From positions 1 through 64,000 of the forward strand of contig JAITOU010000004.1 of assembly GCA_031289755.1 (NCBI GenBank): DNA of 64,000 nucleotides, read 5' to 3'. Source of the stretch: Clostridiales bacterium. GTDB taxonomy: Bacteria; Bacillota; Clostridia; Christensenellales; JAISNN01. Position numbers and translations under genes: made by a program. The notes beneath the pieces are model-generated. The model saw only the letters and a list, made by a program, of their open reading frames with translations. It was not told where the DNA came from and searched no databases. Positions 46,633 through 61,503 of this stretch are shown one piece after another (positions within the stretch are counted from its first letter, which is position 1; each line of letters opens with the position of its first letter).

Positions 46633-47901
46633 TTAGTCCTTTAAGCACCCTATCGGTAAGACATACACGCCGTCTGGACGACGGTAGGCGTAACCGGTCG
46701 CGGTAAGCACAAGCAAAAACGACGGCGGATTCATTTGCTCCGTGTCGATTTTTTCCCGCAATTGGAGCAGGTGCTTCGCCCCGAGCGCAACCGCGCTATC
46801 GCCGCCAAGCTTAATCTCTATCGCTCCCCATTTCCCGTTGTTCAAGTGAATGACGGCATCGGTTTCTAACCCTGCTGAATCGCGGTAGTTATACACCGTT
46901 CCGCCTAATCGTTGTGAATACACCCTTAGGTCGCGGATACACATCGACTCAAATAAAAAGCCGAACGTATTGAGGTCTTTCATAATGTCTGTCGATGTCG
47001 CACCAAGAACCACCGCCGCCACGGAAGGGTCTACAAATTGGCGTGTGTCAGTCGTGCGCAGAGCCGCCTTTGAGCGCAGATACGGTGACCACGCCGCCAC
47101 GTCTTCTATCACATACAGCTTCTTAAAGGCATTCACATAAGAATCAAAGGTGCGCGGGTCGGCTACCGTTCCTTTCATTTCCGCGTCGGAGAGAAGCGTA
47201 CCTATACGCGTGCCTTGCGAAATATTCCTTGCGTAAACTCTCAGTATAGCCCTTGCGCGAGCCGGGTCGCGCTTGATTTCATCAATCTCTACGATATCCT
47301 CCGTTACAAGCGCATCCACGTAGTTTACCGCCGATGTCATCGCGACGACAGGGTCGGCTTCGGTCACCGCCGCCGGCCAACCGCCGCGGCATACGATTTT
47401 CGCTATATCGGTTAAGTTGTGCTTAGCGCGTCCCGATGCGCTTGCCGACCCGTCAAATAAAGCTTCGAGCGAAACCGTACCATCCGAGTCATGCGACTCC
47501 CACATTGACATTGGGCGCATTACCACCCTTTTCATTCTGCCCGTTCCGCTGTGACGGTTTTTGTCTTCTTTGGGTTTTGCCGAACCTGTAAGAATAAATT
47601 GTCCTTTACCGCCGCGCCTGTCCACTTCGGCACGCACATAATTCCATAGCTCCGGTATTGCCTGCCATTCGTCGAACATTAGCGGCGTTTCGCCTGTAAG
47701 CAACGCCGCGTCGCCCGTCGAAGCAAAAATTTTGTATTGATTAAATGTAGGCGGCCATTGCAACTCAACAATCGTTTTTGCAAACAATTTTGCCGACGTA
47801 CTCTTTCCGCACCATTTTGGTCCTTCGACTACAACGCACCCGACCTCTTTTAGCGAGCTTTGTATCGTGGCGTCGATTAGACGCGGTAAATAGCTATCCA
47901 T
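46633..47901 (-). CDS. AAA+ ATPase with DUF4143 nuclease-like domain (copy C)
   Basis: A 422-residue member of the AAA_14/DUF4143 family, clearly different from copies A and B. Walker A is G-P-K-W-C-G-K-S-T, Walker B is L-M-F-D-E-W-Q, the sensor-like T-G-S-A stretch follows, and the C-terminal nuclease-like pair is E-T-D-A-V-I and A-I-E-I-K-L-G-G. The ribosome site is GGGG about 10 nt before the ATG. It has its own promoter with three 23-bp repeats directly upstream of the -35. A toxin-antitoxin pair lies just beyond. Role unknown. Confidence 0.88.
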   Translation of the reverse strand: MDSYLPRLIDATIQSSLKEVGCVVVEGPKWCGKSTSAKLFAKTIVELQWPPTFNQYKIFASTGDAALLTGETPLMFDEWQAIPELWNYVRAEVDRRGGKGQFILTGSAKPKEDKNRHSGTGRMKRVVMRPMSMWESHDSDGTVSLEALFDGSASASGRAKHNLTDIAKIVCRGGWPAAVTEADPVVAMTSAVNYVDALVTEDIVEIDEIKRDPARARAILRVYARNISQGTRIGTLLSDAEMKGTVADPRTFDSYVNAFKKLYVIEDVAAWSPYLRSKAALRTTDTRQFVDPSVAAVVLGATSTDIMKDLNTFGFLFESMCIRDLRVYSQRLGGTVYNYRDSAGLETDAVIHLNNGKWGAIEIKLGGDSAVALGAKHLLQLREKIDTEQMNPPSFLLVLTATGYAYRRPDGVYVLPIGCLKD

Positions 47902-48225: not shown

Positions 48226-48561
48226 TTAATTCTTTTCTTTATCTGCTTTTGGTGCAAGCAATTTTAATGCCGACAAATCCCTTGCCGTATTCAGAACGAG
48301 AGTGATGTAAATCGCGTCCTTGCCTATATAGTACAGGGTCGCGTAATTTCGATAGGTTAGAATGTATTTGTATTTGGTTTTTTGTTTGAGTTTATTTTGC
48401 AGGTTTGCACCGCTTTCTGGCATATCGGCGATATTTTCGATAGCGTCGAGAATAGCCCCGACGACCTTTTCCGCTTGTACGGGGTCGTCACGGGAGATGA
48501 AGTCCTTTATCGCTTTTAAATCGTCATAGACCTGCGGATTGATAATCAAAACATTTTTCAT
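48226..48561 (-). CDS. RelE/ParE-family toxin
   Basis: A 111-residue basic protein of the RelE/ParE toxin superfamily: an N-terminal strand, a two-helix hairpin (D-D-L-K-A-I-K-D-F-I-S, A-E-K-V-V-G-A-I-L-D-A-I), and C-terminal strands with Y-I-L-T-Y-R-N-Y-A-T-L-Y-Y-I and I-T-L-V-L-N-T-A-R-D. Members either cut mRNA at the ribosome (RelE) or act on gyrase (ParE); which applies cannot be told here. Its start overlaps the antitoxin stop by 4 bp, the classic coupled arrangement. Confidence 0.88.
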   Translation of the reverse strand: MKNVLIINPQVYDDLKAIKDFISRDDPVQAEKVVGAILDAIENIADMPESGANLQNKLKQKTKYKYILTYRNYATLYYIGKDAIYITLVLNTARDLSALKLLAPKADKEKN

Positions 48562-48806
48562 ATACCGAGCTTGGCTTTCAATTCGTCAAGCGTGAGTGTA
48601 GCTTCGCCGTTTTGCACACGCGTCTCCGCTTCGGCGATTCGGGCAAAAAGAGCCTTTTCCGCTTGGTCTTGTTCGTATTCCGCTATATCCAAAAGGACAA
48701 AACGACCCCTGCCGTTTTTTGTCAAATACACCGGCGCGCCCGCGACGCAATCTTTGAGTACCGTATTGTAATTACGCAAATCCGATATCGGTTTTATGTT
48801 CGCCAT
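48558..48806 (-). CDS. Phd/YefM-family antitoxin
   Basis: An 82-residue antitoxin: an N-terminal Phd/YefM DNA-binding fold (I-K-P-I-S-D-L-R-N-Y-N-T-V-L, V-Y-L-T-K-N-G-R-G-R-F-V-L-L-D-I) and a C-terminal acidic helix that would wrap the toxin. It precedes the toxin, overlapping by 4 bp. A good promoter lies upstream on the minus strand (TTGTAT, 17 bp, TACAAT), with GGGGGG before the ATG. The protein should repress its own operon together with the toxin. Confidence 0.9.
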   Translation of the reverse strand: MANIKPISDLRNYNTVLKDCVAGAPVYLTKNGRGRFVLLDIAEYEQDQAEKALFARIAEAETRVQNGEATLTLDELKAKLGI

Positions 48807-49075: not shown

Positions 49076-52000
49076 CTATTTCTCTCCGCTCTGCAAAGCC
49101 TTATTCTTAAAAAACCTTGCTTTTAGCGTAGTTTTTTCGATATATTTATCGGTGAGCAGGAGTATTTGCGGCAGGACTGCCAGGACGGTTATCAGCGATA
49201 CGAGCGTTCCGCGCCACAGGAGATTGCCGATTGACGAGACGGCGACCGAGGTGGATATTGTGCCTATTGTGATTCCGGCTATGATTAAGACCAAGCCCGA
49301 CGTCATGATAGGTCCGATTGCCGATTTTAGAGCCGCCGAAAGAGCTTCGAGCTTAGGCTTTGTCTTTCGCTGTTCGATATAGTTGCTCGACAGTATTATT
49401 CCGTAATCGATAGTCGCCCCCATTTGTATACAGCTTGCTATGATATACGCCATAAAAAACATCGGCGAACCGGTCAAGGTATTGACCGAGAAGGATATCC
49501 AGACGGAGCTTTGAATGACAAGCATTATGATAAACGGAAGCAAAAGCGAACGATAAGTGAGCATGACCACCAAAAGGATAAAGAGAATGGATATTACCGT
49601 CGTCAGCATGATATCAAATTCAAAAGCCGTACCGATATCTTTTAGCCCCACCAGATTGCCTGCGAGATATATCTCTTCGTCACCGTAGACTATCGCCGCG
49701 ATGTTGCGCATCGTATCGACAAAGGCAAAGCCTTCGGGCGAGCCGTCCTTGACGTTCAGGACAAAAATCATGCGCGAAAAGTTTTCGCCGTTAAACATTT
49801 TTTCGCCTATCGCCAGCTGCTCCTTGTACGCCGTAAGCGTTTCGGTATGTTCGTCCGATATAAAATCCGATATGAGCGGCCTTTCGGTTAGCGAAAGGGT
49901 AAAATCTATTATCTCAGAAACTCTTATCGGCAACGCTTCAAATCTGCCGTAATCGACAAAATATTTTACATATACCTGCTCAATGAGCGACGCGTCTAAT
50001 GTCAGCCCTGCTCCGTCGGTCAAAGCCGTCAATTCCCCCGACACGGTGTCCAAGCAGCCGCTTATAACGGCGGAAAGCCGTTCATAATCATATGTCCTTG
50101 CGCTCACATAAACGCTGTGAAAATCATTGATTGCCGACAACAGCACAAACAGATTCGGCGTATACAAGGTATCTCCCGACCCGTCGTCGGCTATCGTTGC
50201 AAAAGCGTCGGCGGCGATTCGCGATATCAGCGCGCTGTAAGTATCGGAGGCGTCGTCCGACAGTGCCTGCATATAGAGAAGCATTTCGGATATCGTATAC
50301 TTCAAGGCGTTTCTCGACACGCTGACCGGAACAAGACCGTTGCGTATCGCGTACATGATGTAGACGGTTTTGGTTTCTTCCGCAGAGAAGGCAACGCCGT
50401 TCACACCCGAAGCGGCCGTAAGCTCGGCTATAAAGCCCGTCAAGTCCGCCGCGCTCATAGCGAGGTCTTTTTTGATACCGACCGTTTCGAGCATACCGAA
50501 CGCTCCGTTTAAGGCGGCGGCGTCCGACCCCAAAAAGTCCGAGATGAGCTTGATATATTCCGCATCCGATTCGTCGGTCACGCTTTGCATATACGCGCCA
50601 AATTCCGTCAGGCTCATAACTCCTTCCAAGAATGCCGCTTCCGACGGACTTTCCTGTATAAAATACAGGATATACGCTTGCTTGATAAGGTCGGCGTCAA
50701 AAGCCGAAGCCGACATAATGCCCGTCAAAAGCTCTGCCGTTTCGGAGTAGTCAAGGGAGATTTCTCCCGTGAAGGCTCTGAGTAATCTTTCGGCTTGATG
50801 AGCGTCCATGCCGCCGCCGTTCAGGACACCGGCGATAGCCGCGCCCAAAAAGCCTTCGTCCGCGCCTATTATATCGGCGAGATAGCTTATAAACTCTCTG
50901 CCTTGTATTTTATATTCTCCGCTCGATATTCCGTTCGGGCGGTATTCGGTATCGTACATTATATAGACCTGTTCGCTCAGTCCGACGTCGATAGCGGTCG
51001 TCATGCCGACCTTCTCCGAAATGCCTTGCAGTATATCCGTAATATCCGTATACGAGTATCCTTGTCCGTCGGTATAGGCGGCATACGCTTCGCTTATCCC
51101 GATAAGCGTGTCTACATACGAAGCGTCTTCGATATACGACGCTACCGTAGCGTTGTATATTGAAGAATCATAATAACCCTTTGACGGGTCGCCGTTCAAC
51201 AGCCTTGCGGTAAAGGCTATGACGTCCGCAGCCGGCGCGCTTGCGCTCATCAATGTGTGCGTCGGAATAGCCGTCGTAGGATTGTAGTTGAACGCGGGAT
51301 TTTTTTCAAAATGATATAATTTGTACAGTAATAAGGTCGTCGGTTCGTCTAATTCGATATTGCGCAAATTTACAAAAAGAATAGAGGCTAAAGCGAATAT
51401 ACCGTTTAAATAAGCCGACATTTCCCCGTAGGTATAATAAGTAGACGTACTGCCGAAGAGCTTGAGCAGATTGATGTCGCTTGCGTCTATTCCGAGTAGA
51501 ATAGGAGCTTTTTCCGCTAAAAAGTCTATAAAGGTCGCCGTGTTGATATAAAGACCTTCGACTCTCGCCGCGATATCAAAATCCGCATATACTCCGCTTG
51601 TACCGTCGTATAGGTTATATTTCTCCGTGTACAGCGCGTAAATAATATTGATATGCGTCTGCGTCAAAGTAACGTCGCCTACGATGTCCTTTGCCGCCTG
51701 GCTGTTGAGCAAGTCAAAGAATTGCACCGCGTCCGTATAGGTCGGCAAGGCTTCCGACATAAAATATTTTACAAGCGATAATTGGCTCTTTAAGGAATCT
51801 TCTATAAGGTCTGCAAACTCCGACGACGCGATACCGTCGGCGTACAGAATAAATTCTTCCACGCTCATTAGCGGCAATGCCGCTCCGTTGTTTTTGTACA
51901 GATAATTTCCGTAAAGCTGACGTATATACAGCTCGCTTATGTCAAGACCCGGAGCTAAGTAAGCCAGCCTAGCCATGGCTTCAAAAAAATCTTCCGCAGA

Positions 52001-54172
52001 ATTTTGCGTGTCCAACGCGTCTATCAAGCCCTTTAAGCGCAATATATTCTCTCCGTCTTCCGCGCTTATCACGCCGTCCAAGGAAATTATTCCGCCGCCT
52101 TCCAAAAGCTTAAAGATATATTTGACAAGCCCGTCCAAAGGTAGCTTATACGTTCCCTGCCCGAAGAAGTAATTGCCGTAGAGAATGTATATATATTCTC
52201 TGTAACCCGAAATGTCGATACCCAAAAGGCTCTCTAAGCTTATGAGCATATCGAACATCGCGTCTGCGGTTAGCGGTCGGTCTAAGTTGTTGACGAGAGT
52301 CGTAAAGGCTATTATGACGGCGCGTGTGTTTTCGTCCAAAAACGACAAATCTATTCCCGAATTGATTTTGCCCGTCAATAGCCCTTCGGTATAATTCAAA
52401 AATTCTTTGAGCGTCATTTTGCCCAATTCAAGCGGATACTCGTCGTAATATTTCATTCCGTAAAGCTGAATTATATAGTCCTTAAAAGCTTCCGCGTCTA
52501 TATCGACGCCGTACTCGCCCGTGTCCTTTATAAATGCCGTCAGCTCCGCCGCCGTCATCGCGGTGTCGGACGATTTAAGCAAAAAATTTAAAAGCAGGAT
52601 ATATTCGGCACTGCCCGATATCGCCGACGCAATGTCCGCCGATGCCGATATTTGCCTTTTGCCTTCGATAATCTCCGCCGCAAAATCCAAAAAGCTCTTC
52701 ATGCTTATGCGGTTTTCTTGCAGCATACCGTTTTCGAGATAGTAAGTCCCGAAAAGCTGGCTCATTAAGGCAGGGTCGATATTCATGAGCCGCGCCGCGT
52801 CGTCGGACGTCATTTCACGCGCTACCGTCGTCGGGTACGACAGGACGTCCTTGACCATTTTCTCGCCCGACTCGTTGTAATATCTAAGGAGCATTTCGGT
52901 CAGTCTTATTTGTTTATCATAATCCGCTTGGCTTTGAGCCTTAGGCAGGGTCATGTAGACCTGAACGCTCGGACCGAAGGTCGTTACGACGTCGTTCGGT
53001 ATTCTTTTTTTGTTTTCTTCCAAAAATTCATATTTTAACTGCGATTGCAGGACAAAGCACCCGGCTACGATGACAAGCATGACCAACGGTACGATTTTTT
53101 TTGTCTTATTCAAAAACTTTACATAAGTGCCTTTATTTGTCTTGGGTTTTTTGGACCTGAATAATTTTAAAGGCTCGAATTTGAATTTTTCGATAGACTT
53201 ATTTAAAAGCACGATAAGTCCCGGCATCAACAGAAAGACCGTCAGTACGCTTATTACAAGAGCTTTTATCATGACGACGCCTATATCCGCGCCTATTTTA
53301 AAGGTCATAAATACTATGGCAAAAAGCGAAGCTATCGTCGTCAGCGAGCTTGCCGAAACGACCGAGAACGACTTTTTGAGAGCCTTAGCCATAGCGATTT
53401 TTGCATTCGGCTCATGCTCCTTGATTTCCTTATAATTGTGCATTGTCACGATAGAATAATCCATGGCGAGAGCCATTTGAAGTATCGCCGCGATAGATTT
53501 GACTATGTAAGAAATTTCTCCGAGAAACATATTCGAGCCGAGATTGATAAGGACCGATATGCCTATGACCGCGCCTATGATTATCGGTTCTAACAGCGAC
53601 TTCGACGTAAAAATCAAGACCGCCGCGACAATAATTATGGCTAAGATAAACATGATTGTCATTTCGCCCGATATGCGGTTTTTCAAATCCAGATTGCTGA
53701 CCGCCTGTCCGTTGAGCGCAATGTCATAGAGCTTAAATTCTTCCTTTAAATCGGCTATCAGCCCTTCGGCGTTAGCCGAATAATCGTCGCCGTCAATGAC
53801 GATTTTAAAGAGCGCGTCGCCTACGCCGTTGCCGTCGGTATCATAAAAATACGACGGGTCGTTAAAAAATGTCACCATAACGGCATTGTCTAAGGCTTCT
53901 ATGCGCTTTTTGAGCGACAAGGCTTCTTCGACCGTCACCGTCCGTATCATTATCTCCGCTTGTCCCGAAAGCCCGAATTCTTCTTCCATTATGTCTATCG
54001 CGGCACGCGTATCGGAGTCATCAGGCAGATATCCGGCAAGATTATAGTTGATATTGACGCGGCTCATCGCCCATACGGAGAAAGCCGCCATAAAAATATA
54101 TAAGGCTATTATTACAAACCTGCTCTTGATAATAAAATTGGGGACTAACGTCCTTTCACGATTTCTTGACAT
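49076..54172 (-). CDS. Giant MMPL/RND-family transporter
   Basis: A 1698-residue MMPL exporter. An N-terminal membrane helix (about 15-35) leads to a small periplasmic-type loop, then the first five-helix MMPL block (about 172-325, with the D-Y-S motif in M-A-L-A-M-D-Y-S-I) and a helix near 362-376. A huge extracytoplasmic insert (about 382-1519) follows, then the second MMPL block (about 1520-1675, with A-T-I-D-Y-G-I). The insert consists of about ten related helical repeats with L-Y-G-x-Y-like cores. The start at 54172 (M-S-R-N-R) has GGAG upstream; a further 16 codons are open. Divergent from a TetR gene. Substrate probably lipid or hydrophobic. Confidence 0.92.
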   Translation of the reverse strand: MSRNRERTLVPNFIIKSRFVIIALYIFMAAFSVWAMSRVNINYNLAGYLPDDSDTRAAIDIMEEEFGLSGQAEIMIRTVTVEEALSLKKRIEALDNAVMVTFFNDPSYFYDTDGNGVGDALFKIVIDGDDYSANAEGLIADLKEEFKLYDIALNGQAVSNLDLKNRISGEMTIMFILAIIIVAAVLIFTSKSLLEPIIIGAVIGISVLINLGSNMFLGEISYIVKSIAAILQMALAMDYSIVTMHNYKEIKEHEPNAKIAMAKALKKSFSVVSASSLTTIASLFAIVFMTFKIGADIGVVMIKALVISVLTVFLLMPGLIVLLNKSIEKFKFEPLKLFRSKKPKTNKGTYVKFLNKTKKIVPLVMLVIVAGCFVLQSQLKYEFLEENKKRIPNDVVTTFGPSVQVYMTLPKAQSQADYDKQIRLTEMLLRYYNESGEKMVKDVLSYPTTVAREMTSDDAARLMNIDPALMSQLFGTYYLENGMLQENRISMKSFLDFAAEIIEGKRQISASADIASAISGSAEYILLLNFLLKSSDTAMTAAELTAFIKDTGEYGVDIDAEAFKDYIIQLYGMKYYDEYPLELGKMTLKEFLNYTEGLLTGKINSGIDLSFLDENTRAVIIAFTTLVNNLDRPLTADAMFDMLISLESLLGIDISGYREYIYILYGNYFFGQGTYKLPLDGLVKYIFKLLEGGGIISLDGVISAEDGENILRLKGLIDALDTQNSAEDFFEAMARLAYLAPGLDISELYIRQLYGNYLYKNNGAALPLMSVEEFILYADGIASSEFADLIEDSLKSQLSLVKYFMSEALPTYTDAVQFFDLLNSQAAKDIVGDVTLTQTHINIIYALYTEKYNLYDGTSGVYADFDIAARVEGLYINTATFIDFLAEKAPILLGIDASDINLLKLFGSTSTYYTYGEMSAYLNGIFALASILFVNLRNIELDEPTTLLLYKLYHFEKNPAFNYNPTTAIPTHTLMSASAPAADVIAFTARLLNGDPSKGYYDSSIYNATVASYIEDASYVDTLIGISEAYAAYTDGQGYSYTDITDILQGISEKVGMTTAIDVGLSEQVYIMYDTEYRPNGISSGEYKIQGREFISYLADIIGADEGFLGAAIAGVLNGGGMDAHQAERLLRAFTGEISLDYSETAELLTGIMSASAFDADLIKQAYILYFIQESPSEAAFLEGVMSLTEFGAYMQSVTDESDAEYIKLISDFLGSDAAALNGAFGMLETVGIKKDLAMSAADLTGFIAELTAASGVNGVAFSAEETKTVYIMYAIRNGLVPVSVSRNALKYTISEMLLYMQALSDDASDTYSALISRIAADAFATIADDGSGDTLYTPNLFVLLSAINDFHSVYVSARTYDYERLSAVISGCLDTVSGELTALTDGAGLTLDASLIEQVYVKYFVDYGRFEALPIRVSEIIDFTLSLTERPLISDFISDEHTETLTAYKEQLAIGEKMFNGENFSRMIFVLNVKDGSPEGFAFVDTMRNIAAIVYGDEEIYLAGNLVGLKDIGTAFEFDIMLTTVISILFILLVVMLTYRSLLLPFIIMLVIQSSVWISFSVNTLTGSPMFFMAYIIASCIQMGATIDYGIILSSNYIEQRKTKPKLEALSAALKSAIGPIMTSGLVLIIAGITIGTISTSVAVSSIGNLLWRGTLVSLITVLAVLPQILLLTDKYIEKTTLKARFFKNKALQSGEK

Positions 54173-54504: not shown

Positions 54505-55089
54505 ATGGAAAAAACAAAAGGCAAAAAGCGTTTAAGCACACATTTACAAATTCTTCATGTATCAAAAAACCTTTTCGAGCAAAACGGCGTATCTAATACC
54601 ACCATCGACGACATCGCCGCCGATTCGGGCATAGCGCGGTCGACCTTCTTTACACACTTTGCTTCGCTTGACGAGCTGTATGCAGAGCTTGCCGACAGAG
54701 AAGCCGAAGACCTGTTGGAGACGATAAACGCCTTGCAGGAGAGCGATTTGCCGCCGGATAAGCTGTTAAAGGGGTTATTTTCTAAGCTTGTGGACGACAC
54801 GACAAAATACCCGAAAACCTTTGTGGAGCTTTTGATAAAGGGTCTGCTTTTCAAAAAAGCCCCTATTCAATACTTTATCAAGCTCGAAGAAGTAATTTCG
54901 GCTCATCTCGTCTACGCACATCCGCCGCTTAACGACAACTTGACTATCCACGAGATGTATGCGACGCTGACCGGCTTGTATTTCGGGCTGATTTATTGCA
55001 ATCTCCTGCGCGGAGAAAATATAAGCGATATTCAGGCAATCAAAAACTGTATAAACAAATACATCGATTCTCTTGATATAAAAAAATAA
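54505..55089 (+). CDS. TetR-family regulator
   Basis: A 194-residue TetR-type regulator. The helix-turn-helix is clear: R-L-S-T-H-L-Q-I-L-H-V-S-K-N-L-F, then N-T-T-I-D-D-I-A-A-D-S-G-I-A-R-S-T-F-F-T-H-F. The remaining ~140 residues form a ligand-binding domain. The start at 54505 lacks any Shine-Dalgarno and matches the expected transcription start; 59 further open codons upstream cross the promoter and are rejected. It diverges from the MMPL gene and probably represses it. A terminator follows. Confidence 0.9.
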   Translation: MEKTKGKKRLSTHLQILHVSKNLFEQNGVSNTTIDDIAADSGIARSTFFTHFASLDELYAELADREAEDLLETINALQESDLPPDKLLKGLFSKLVDDTTKYPKTFVELLIKGLLFKKAPIQYFIKLEEVISAHLVYAHPPLNDNLTIHEMYATLTGLYFGLIYCNLLRGENISDIQAIKNCINKYIDSLDIKK

Positions 55090-60273: not shown

Positions 60274-61503
60274 ATGTATATTAAAAGGCATATCGAAGCC
60301 GCAATCGACAGAATAGCAAAGCGCAAATCCGTCGTAGTTATCACGGGCGCAAGACAGGTCGGCAAATCTACCATGCTCAAAGAAGTCAAGCACGGCGTCA
60401 ATTATGTCGCGCTCAACAGACCGCTTGTCCGTCAAAGCGCAATCGACAGTCCGTCGTTGTTTTTTGAAAACTACATACCGCCCGTGATTGTCGACGAGAT
60501 ACAAAAAGCACCGGAGCTTTTTGAGTATATAAAGGACATTGTAGACGGCAACGGAGCAAAGGGGCAGTTTTATTTGACGGGTTCTCAAAGCATGAAGCTG
60601 ATGAAGAATGTCACCGAAAGCTTAGCCGGACGTGCCGGAATCGTCAAAATGCTCGGTCTGTCGCTCCGTGAATTAAACGGAATATCCTACCGCGAACCGT
60701 TTTTGCCGACACGCGGACATTTGTCGGACATAGTTAAAGAGCGTACCGCTTTTAATTACGGGCAAATAACGGAGCGCATTCACAAAGGCGGCTTTCCCGA
60801 ATTATACGAAACGGATAGCTCCATTCGTGATTGGGCGGACTATTACAGCTCGTATTTTCAAACGTATATCGAAAAGGATATCAAGGATTTGCTCAATATT
60901 CGCGACGAAGCGGCATTTGTAAAATTTGTCAAAACCACCGCTTCGCTGACCGGCAAGCTGTTAAATTACAGTACAATTGCAGAAATCTGCGGCAAAGATA
61001 TAAAGACGGTGCAAAGCTGGATGTCGGTACTCGAATCGGGCGGACTTGTCTATCTATTACAGCCGTATTATAATAATCTAAACAAGCGTCTTGTCAAAAC
61101 GCCTAAGCTGCATTTTTTGGACACGGGACTTGCCTGTTGGCTCTTGGGGTGGAACACTCCGAATCAGCTTGTAAACGGCGCGATGTGGGGGCATATTTTT
61201 GAAACGTTTGTATTTTCGGAAGTATTAAAAAGCTATTATAACGACGGCATTTGTGACGCGCCGCTGTATTTTTACCGTGACAAAGAAAAGAACGAGATAG
61301 ACCTTGTCATCGAGAACGGCGGAATATTGTATCCGATAGAAATCAAAACGACGGGCGACCCGACAAAAGCTATGGTAAGCAATTTTAAACGGCTTGCTGA
61401 CATTGCCGGAAAGACCGTCGGCGAAGGAGCGGTTATCTGCCTTGCAAAAGAACCTTTGCCGCTTACCGATACGGTTCAAATCCTGCCCGTTGATTTAATT
61501 TAA
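60274..61503 (+). CDS. AAA+ ATPase with DUF4143 nuclease-like domain (copy D)
   Basis: A 409-residue DUF4143-family ATPase of a subtype distinct from A-C. Walker A is GARQVGKST, Walker B is V-I-V-D-E-I-Q, followed by L-T-G-S-Q-S. A winged-helix-like part (S-T-I-A-E-I-C-G-K-D-I-K-T-V-Q-S-W) is recognisable, and the C-terminus has N-E-I-D-L-V-I and Y-P-I-E-I-K-T-T-G, the PD-(D/E)xK-like pair. A weak AAGG site precedes the ATG. It is convergent with uvrA. Function unknown. Confidence 0.88.
   Translation: MYIKRHIEAAIDRIAKRKSVVVITGARQVGKSTMLKEVKHGVNYVALNRPLVRQSAIDSPSLFFENYIPPVIVDEIQKAPELFEYIKDIVDGNGAKGQFYLTGSQSMKLMKNVTESLAGRAGIVKMLGLSLRELNGISYREPFLPTRGHLSDIVKERTAFNYGQITERIHKGGFPELYETDSSIRDWADYYSSYFQTYIEKDIKDLLNIRDEAAFVKFVKTTASLTGKLLNYSTIAEICGKDIKTVQSWMSVLESGGLVYLLQPYYNNLNKRLVKTPKLHFLDTGLACWLLGWNTPNQLVNGAMWGHIFETFVFSEVLKSYYNDGICDAPLYFYRDKEKNEIDLVIENGGILYPIEIKTTGDPTKAMVSNFKRLADIAGKTVGEGAVICLAKEPLPLTDTVQILPVDLI

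Follow-up and report, generated by a model that had tools for sequence, protein, structure and literature searches.

An MMPL-family exporter from a Clostridiales bacterium with about ten copies of a predicted helical repeat in its second extracellular loop

A long MMPL exporter beside a divergent TetR gene

The window (a stretch of 64,000 nucleotides of contig JAITOU010000004.1, from the Clostridiales bacterium assembly GCA_031289755.1) contains a long gene of the MMPL family and, divergently, a gene for a TetR-family regulator (Table 1). MMPL (PF03176) is the sole Pfam family in the 1714-aa protein. It matches in two stretches (147.4 bits against a cut-off of 20.5; E 6.4e-43), and these two blocks flank residues 398-1529, which agrees with a sequence-only reading of this DNA that had called the protein an MMPL transporter. 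The NCBIfam matches are to the MmpL, HAE3, and HpnN subfamilies, which have the MMPL core in common with the exporter. Each match is far under its curated cut-off, and the exporter does not qualify as a member of any of them: 112.3 vs. 874.7 bits for TIGR00833 (actII/MmpL), 91.5 vs. 351.9 bits for TIGR00921 (HAE3), and 58.8 vs. 751.85 bits for HpnN. The closest solved structures are MmpL4, MmpL5, and HpnN. The true start of the protein is likely M17, at 54172, because this codon is preceded, at about 11 nt, by a GGAG and because the ortholog from a genome of the same genus (G004) begins nearby. (M17 aligns near the N terminus of that ortholog.)

Hydropathy places TM1 around residue 33, a cluster of transmembrane helices at 181-344, TM7 around 376, and a second cluster at 1529-1694. 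This is the two-fold pseudo-symmetric arrangement, with a large extracellular loop after the first TM helix of each half, and the N- and C-terminal halves of the protein detect one another by both BLAST and profile comparison. The second of these loops, between TM7 and TM8 (residues 398-1529; window 49634-53029), holds the repeats described below. Both TM blocks contain an Asp-Tyr pair (in LAMDYS near residue 254 and in ATIDYG near residue 1605), and both pairs are kept in the G004 ortholog. In MmpL3-type transporters, the Asp-Tyr pairs of the two TM blocks are the proton relay. The family and the Asp-Tyr residues can be read directly from the sequence, and on that footing we predict that the protein is a proton-driven MMPL pump of the RND superfamily.

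The ORFs adjoining the exporter encode the TetR regulator, an aminotransferase, and proteins of the ParE and Phd/YefM types. The exporter is probably controlled by the divergent TetR. The same divergent TetR-MMPL layout is found at six other loci of the family, in other branches (L038, L081, L129, L130, L132, and L133), and the TetR neighbour is absent from the orthologs in three genomes of the genus (G003, G004, and G005). Neighbours differ among those three orthologs, where we found no conserved operon partner. As for the host, a search of its genome (93% complete) yielded no Omp85, and a control set gave positives in the expected diderms. The host is probably a monoderm, judging from its gene content, and the earlier suggestion of a Gram-positive cell looks likely.

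Table 1. Features of the exporter locus. Positions are those of the window; i-E is the score against the 84-position repeat model.
Feature	Residues	Window positions	Strand	Evidence and remarks
MMPL/RND-family exporter with expanded second extracellular loop		49076..54220	-	1714 aa as listed
N-terminal core: TM1, first extracellular domain, TM2-7	26-397	53030..54145	-	Pfam MMPL 165-342; hydropathy; N-block model 26-397, E 1e-179; DY in LAMDYS
Second porter domain, first half, preceding the array	398-479	52784..53029	-	76% identity to ortholog; dN/dS 0.11
Repeat copy 1	480-564	52529..52783	-	i-E 2.8e-23; leave-one-out 1.5e-9
Repeat copy 2	580-659	52244..52483	-	i-E 1.6e-20; leave-one-out 4.2e-9
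Repeat copy 3	674-749	51974..52201	-	i-E 5.5e-15; leave-one-out 1.3e-5
Repeat copy 4	761-838	51707..51940	-	Repeat model and leave-one-out
Repeat copy 5, decayed	855-936	51413..51658	-	i-E 8; position and spacing only
Repeat copy 6, decayed	965-1063	51032..51328	-	i-E 0.038
Repeat copy 7	1076-1165	50726..50995	-	Repeat model and leave-one-out
Repeat copy 8	1173-1264	50429..50704	-	i-E 1.4e-14; leave-one-out 5.5e-9
Repeat copy 9, second half diverged	1278-1340	50201..50389	-	i-E 7.2e-11; leave-one-out 7.6e-5
Repeat copy 10, runs into second half of porter domain	1408-1485	49766..49999	-	i-E 2.6e-19
Second porter domain, second half, and TM8-12	1486-1705	49106..49765	-	Pfam MMPL second stretch; MmpL4 alignment from residue 1481; DY in ATIDYG
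TetR-family regulator, 194 aa, divergent		54505..55089	+	PF00440, E 5.7e-11; ATG at 54505

An 84-residue unit recurs in the loop, eight times clearly and twice in decayed form

Residues 480-1485 are an array of eight clear and two decayed copies of a unit of about 84 amino acids. Our model of the unit is an iterated 84-position profile (consensus GIDAELIEQLYGMYYFENGTLGAEKLSLKEFIDYLADLIDGEEEYNIDISGLLGEEAKEALELLKALLDAADTPLTAAELAAAL), against which the eight clear copies score i-E 7e-11 to 3e-23. The decayed copies 5 and 6 are told apart mainly by their spacing. The sequence-only reading had counted about ten repeats, with start points running from residue 472 to residue 1402, and all ten of those positions match our copies, each a few residues early. 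"About ten" copies is a fair description; "ten strong copies" would overstate it.

The repeats are not a chance resemblance, since the best i-E was 0.5 among 160 shuffled sequences and 0.06 among reversed sequences. The periodicity is also significant within the exporter alone, as all eight clear copies are recovered in leave-one-out comparisons (i-E 7.6e-5 to 1.5e-9). Moreover, a model built only from the first copy in four other species' proteins picks up six additional copies in the exporter, five of them at i-E 3e-10 to 5e-4 and the last at 0.06. The copies of the exporter are only about 20% identical to each other, so the unit duplications are old. (The low identity also explains why comparing the insert to itself with plain BLASTP gave no matches.) Given these diverged copies, the intact ORF, and the same architecture in independent genomes, an assembly artefact is unlikely.

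The array is strongly acidic (net charge -85), with one cysteine and no tryptophan. While the MMPL/RND family of pumps is known, as one that exports lipids and drugs, the repeat unit is new to the domain libraries that we searched: no Pfam or NCBIfam model covers it. Literature searches of open-licence papers found no description of the array.

The units are predicted to be helical and to pack closely

For a segment of two units (residues 474-667, in an alignment that included further copies from the exporter and its ortholog), AlphaFold predicts an all-helical structure (pLDDT 79.4, pTM 0.75), with about four helices per unit and two short bridges. For the whole insert, modelled from two sequences (the exporter and one ortholog), pLDDT was 35 and only the helix content is usable; this model does not give the overall shape, the length, or a lumen. 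A Foldseek search of the two-unit model against the PDB and viral libraries found nothing under E 0.5, and no solved structure convincingly matches the unit.

The two-unit model contains helix-loop-short-strand-helix elements, and the repeats have LS.KEF-like motifs, which suggested EF-hands. We rejected this idea. None of 26 copies has an EF-hand match in Pfam at E 1, the loop columns of the repeat lack conserved D/N acidic ligands for calcium, and when the PDB was searched by fold, EF-hand proteins came up only at E > 1, with TM of about 0.2.

In a relative from G868, nine copies lie head to tail, mostly with 1-4 residues between the matched ends. This nearly gap-free spacing argues for packed units rather than beads on long linkers. 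Because the two-unit model is confidently helical and the spacing in G868 is so tight, we favor contiguous packing, and it is quite probable, going by these models, that the array forms a contiguous extracellular helical solenoid. The helical fold of the units is predicted; we infer the packing across the whole array and its outward projection. The earlier reading had offered a long solenoid or a tunnel through the wall. Our results favor the solenoid, and do not extend to a tunnel, to the passage of substrate, or to the crossing of the wall.

Two array-bearing MMPL proteins (L129:2824-6969 and L130:3132-7172) have eight to nine nearly gap-free units and an adjoining divergent TetR_C_8 gene. 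These would be better structural targets than the exporter in the window.

Relatives form a series from zero to about fourteen copies

Relatives of the exporter have anywhere from zero to about 14 copies. In the exporter, the gap between the N- and C-terminal core blocks is 1077 aa, as compared to 83-89 aa in zero-copy relatives from the order, which bears out the earlier claim that the loop is far longer than usual: it has been lengthened about tenfold. One-copy relatives have core gaps of 140-170 aa, and their unit lies at the C-terminal edge of the insertion, abutting the C block. Four of these (G252, G279, G794, and G703, all Clostridia) have the same core as the exporter and the same unit at the same edge, and three of the four have a divergent TetR gene, but they total just 747-777 aa, with one unit instead of about ten. 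Copy 10 of the exporter is the counterpart of their single copy. Expanded relatives have 4, 5, 7-9, about 10, or about 14 copies. The core gap is 505 aa with four copies, 457 aa with five, and 1518 aa with about fourteen, and overall it is well described by 66 + 96 x copies (r2 0.97).

Long versions are present in all five genomes from the same genus. Those in G004, G005, and G003 have 1513, 1740, and 2164 aa, and those in G001 and G002 are pieces cut by contig ends. (G001 and G002 also hold shorter paralogs with repeats.) In the rest of the order, the strong MMPL matches among those listed fall in open frames of roughly 640-1070 aa. The class adds two more relatives, with eight or nine copies in proteins 1347 and 1382 aa long. 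A match of any kind is rare: it occurs in 10 of 297 genomes for the order, in 9 of 343 for the class, and in 3 of 398 for the phylum. One match, to a 571-aa protein from G432 (L131) with two TM helices, lacks the MMPL core, and we regard it as a chance resemblance between helical sequences.

The closest ortholog is from G004 (a Clostridiales MAG; the protein is the one at L079) and is about 67% identical in the best segment. It lacks two whole units of the exporter, and both indels are in register. One is a unit of 88 aa (residues 715-802, from inside copy 3 to inside copy 4), and both of its edges fall at position 49/50 of the repeat model. The other is a whole unit at residues 1074-1174, with the break where copies 7 and 8 begin. 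Such in-register gain and loss of units is what recombination between repeats predicts. Together with the fixed insertion point at the C-terminal edge and the series of copy numbers, it suggests that the array grew by duplication of whole units, starting from the single unit that is present at this spot in ordinary relatives. In a tree of the core (with the insert left out), the expanded proteins fall in more than one lineage, and a single-clade origin of the expanded forms is rejected (AU test, p = 3.6e-5), with the long branch of G100 as a reason for caution.

The repeats are under purifying selection, as judged from codon comparisons: the exporter and its G004 ortholog give a dN/dS of 0.23 for the repeats, as compared to 0.11-0.12 for the core, although these ratios are approximate because dS is high (about 1.2). 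In the same comparison, conservation is highest in the first copy (69% identity) and the last (67%), and the middle copies are 51-63% identical.

In G491, from another class of the phylum, two fragments of array-bearing MMPL proteins lie at the ends of contigs (L100:1-2619 and L099:2-2740). Copies within one of these proteins are up to 50-58% identical, which suggests that the duplications in G491 are more recent than those in the window's exporter.

Comparison with known exporters

Like the exporter, the mycobacterial proteins MmpL4, MmpL5, and MmpL10 combine an MMPL/RND core with a long all-helical insertion in the second extracellular domain (PD2), and they too have a thick envelope to export across. 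Efflux by MmpL5 depends on a coiled-coil insertion of 196 aa, located in periplasmic domain 2, that has been modelled as a tube of about 13 nm (PMC12501195). In MmpL10, the extension drives trimerisation (PMC12183618). The site of insertion also corresponds. Residue 1481 of the exporter aligns with residue 710 of MmpL4, so that the C-terminal edge of the array coincides with the end of the MmpL4 coiled coil, and at this edge the exporter has the helical insertion in the second porter domain that marks the MmpL4/5/10 subgroup. In contrast, the antiparallel coiled coil of about 200 residues was not found in the exporter. Members of the subgroup also have an MmpS partner gene alongside; the ORFs that adjoin the exporter are of the TetR, aminotransferase, ParE, and Phd/YefM types. 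The MmpL insertion is an antiparallel coiled coil of about 196-255 aa that makes a tube by trimerisation, whereas that of the exporter is about 1000 aa of tandem four-helix units. The two are unrelated in sequence (the insert has no sequence match to the MmpL structures), and the host of the exporter is a probable monoderm.

The gene layout recalls FarR/FarE from S. aureus, a divergent TetR-RND pair that confers resistance to antimicrobial fatty acids (PMC10019231). FarE, like the exporter, is an RND-superfamily pump from a Gram-positive bacterium beside a divergent TetR-family regulator, and the window has this arrangement as well. The likeness is one of description and gene layout, and the account of FarE used here describes no repeat array (PMC10019231).

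What the array might do

We propose that the units would pack end to end as a contiguous helical solenoid that stands off the porter domain, outside the membrane. This arm might receive a hydrophobic substrate (a lipid, a fatty acid, or an amphiphilic toxin) from the porter and lead it away into the wall, as has been proposed for the coiled-coil tube of MmpL4/5. We favor an outward arm that leads substrate away because the array ends where the MmpL4 coiled coil does and because of the roles of the extensions in MmpL5 and MmpL10. The picture as a whole, a TetR-linked MMPL exporter with a helical solenoid arm leading substrate outward, seems to us about evenly balanced between right and wrong. 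A role of the array in conducting substrate or handing it off, if taken by itself, is a tentative suggestion by analogy to MmpL proteins, and by that analogy a wall-spanning conduit is plausible. The substrate conduit, the class of substrate, and the oligomeric state are speculative.

Some of our observations speak against this picture. The copy number shifts between close relatives, which fits poorly with a length that is tuned to the thickness of the wall. The acidic array is not obviously a hydrophobic path, and the unit is no coiled coil and matches no known structure significantly. Nor do the orthologs in G003, G004, and G005 share the TetR neighbour. In a bolder form of the idea, the exporter would be a single-gene, Gram-positive alternative to tripartite efflux, with the solenoid as a covalent conduit in the wall whose reach is set by the number of units and altered by recombination between repeats. 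We consider this unlikely.

The strongly acidic composition could also fit, and variation in copy number among congeners would be expected, if the array were an arm for binding a surface or anchoring to the wall (via peptidoglycan, teichoic acid, or an extracellular partner), or else a variable surface, with no substrate moving along it. The middle copies diverge fastest, as surface repeats would. But known wall-binding domains match no copy, and the dN/dS of the repeats indicates that the array as a whole is constrained rather than under diversifying selection. Also, the insertion sits inside the porter domain, where MmpL extensions serve export, and we think this explanation is rather improbable. 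The selection on the repeats also argues against a passive spacer, or a largely non-adaptive expansion that was tolerated in an exposed loop and grew by unequal recombination. Such an array could explain why differences in length are exact units with breakpoints at equivalent positions of the repeat, why two copies have decayed, and why expanded forms arise in separate lineages yet are rare (with any match in just 9 of 343 genomes of the class). Against it, long ORFs are intact in several species, and copies that are only about 20% identical imply that arrays have persisted since very ancient duplications; we view it as unlikely too. The least probable explanation, in our judgment, is that the array serves chiefly for oligomerisation, holding the protomers of the pump together. 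The array does occupy the same position in the domain as the MmpL extension, including the trimerising one of MmpL10. However, it does not resemble a coiled coil, relatives from the same family manage with one copy or none, and oligomerisation does not call for ten or more units.

If the array is an outward arm, as we favor, then this is a pump with an evolving, modular outer arm that varies among relatives from no units to about 14. RND pumps from monoderms have received little study, and it is an open question how lipids or drugs that have been exported from the membrane get across a thick wall. The family provides a natural length series, in which a single homologous module varies in number at a fixed site, and with it the effect of extracellular reach on export can be tested directly.

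Other genes near the exporter and its relatives

The genome that contains the window also encodes an RND protein of the AcrB family (PF00873, E 1.7e-125) on contig C35 (L041:1009-6174, + strand). At 1722 aa, it is well over the usual length for AcrB, with about 670 residues before the second TM helix, and it has no copies of the exporter's repeat. Beside the closest ortholog of the exporter, L079:184-3612 (+ strand) encodes a 1143-aa leucine-rich-repeat protein of the BspA type, with Listeria-Bacteroides repeats. Within the window, the ParE-type toxin and the Phd/YefM-type antitoxin form a pair just downstream of the exporter (48226-48806, - strand), and two genes for AAA_14/DUF4143 ATPases lie less than 15 kb apart, at 46633-47901 (- strand) and 60274-61503 (+ strand).
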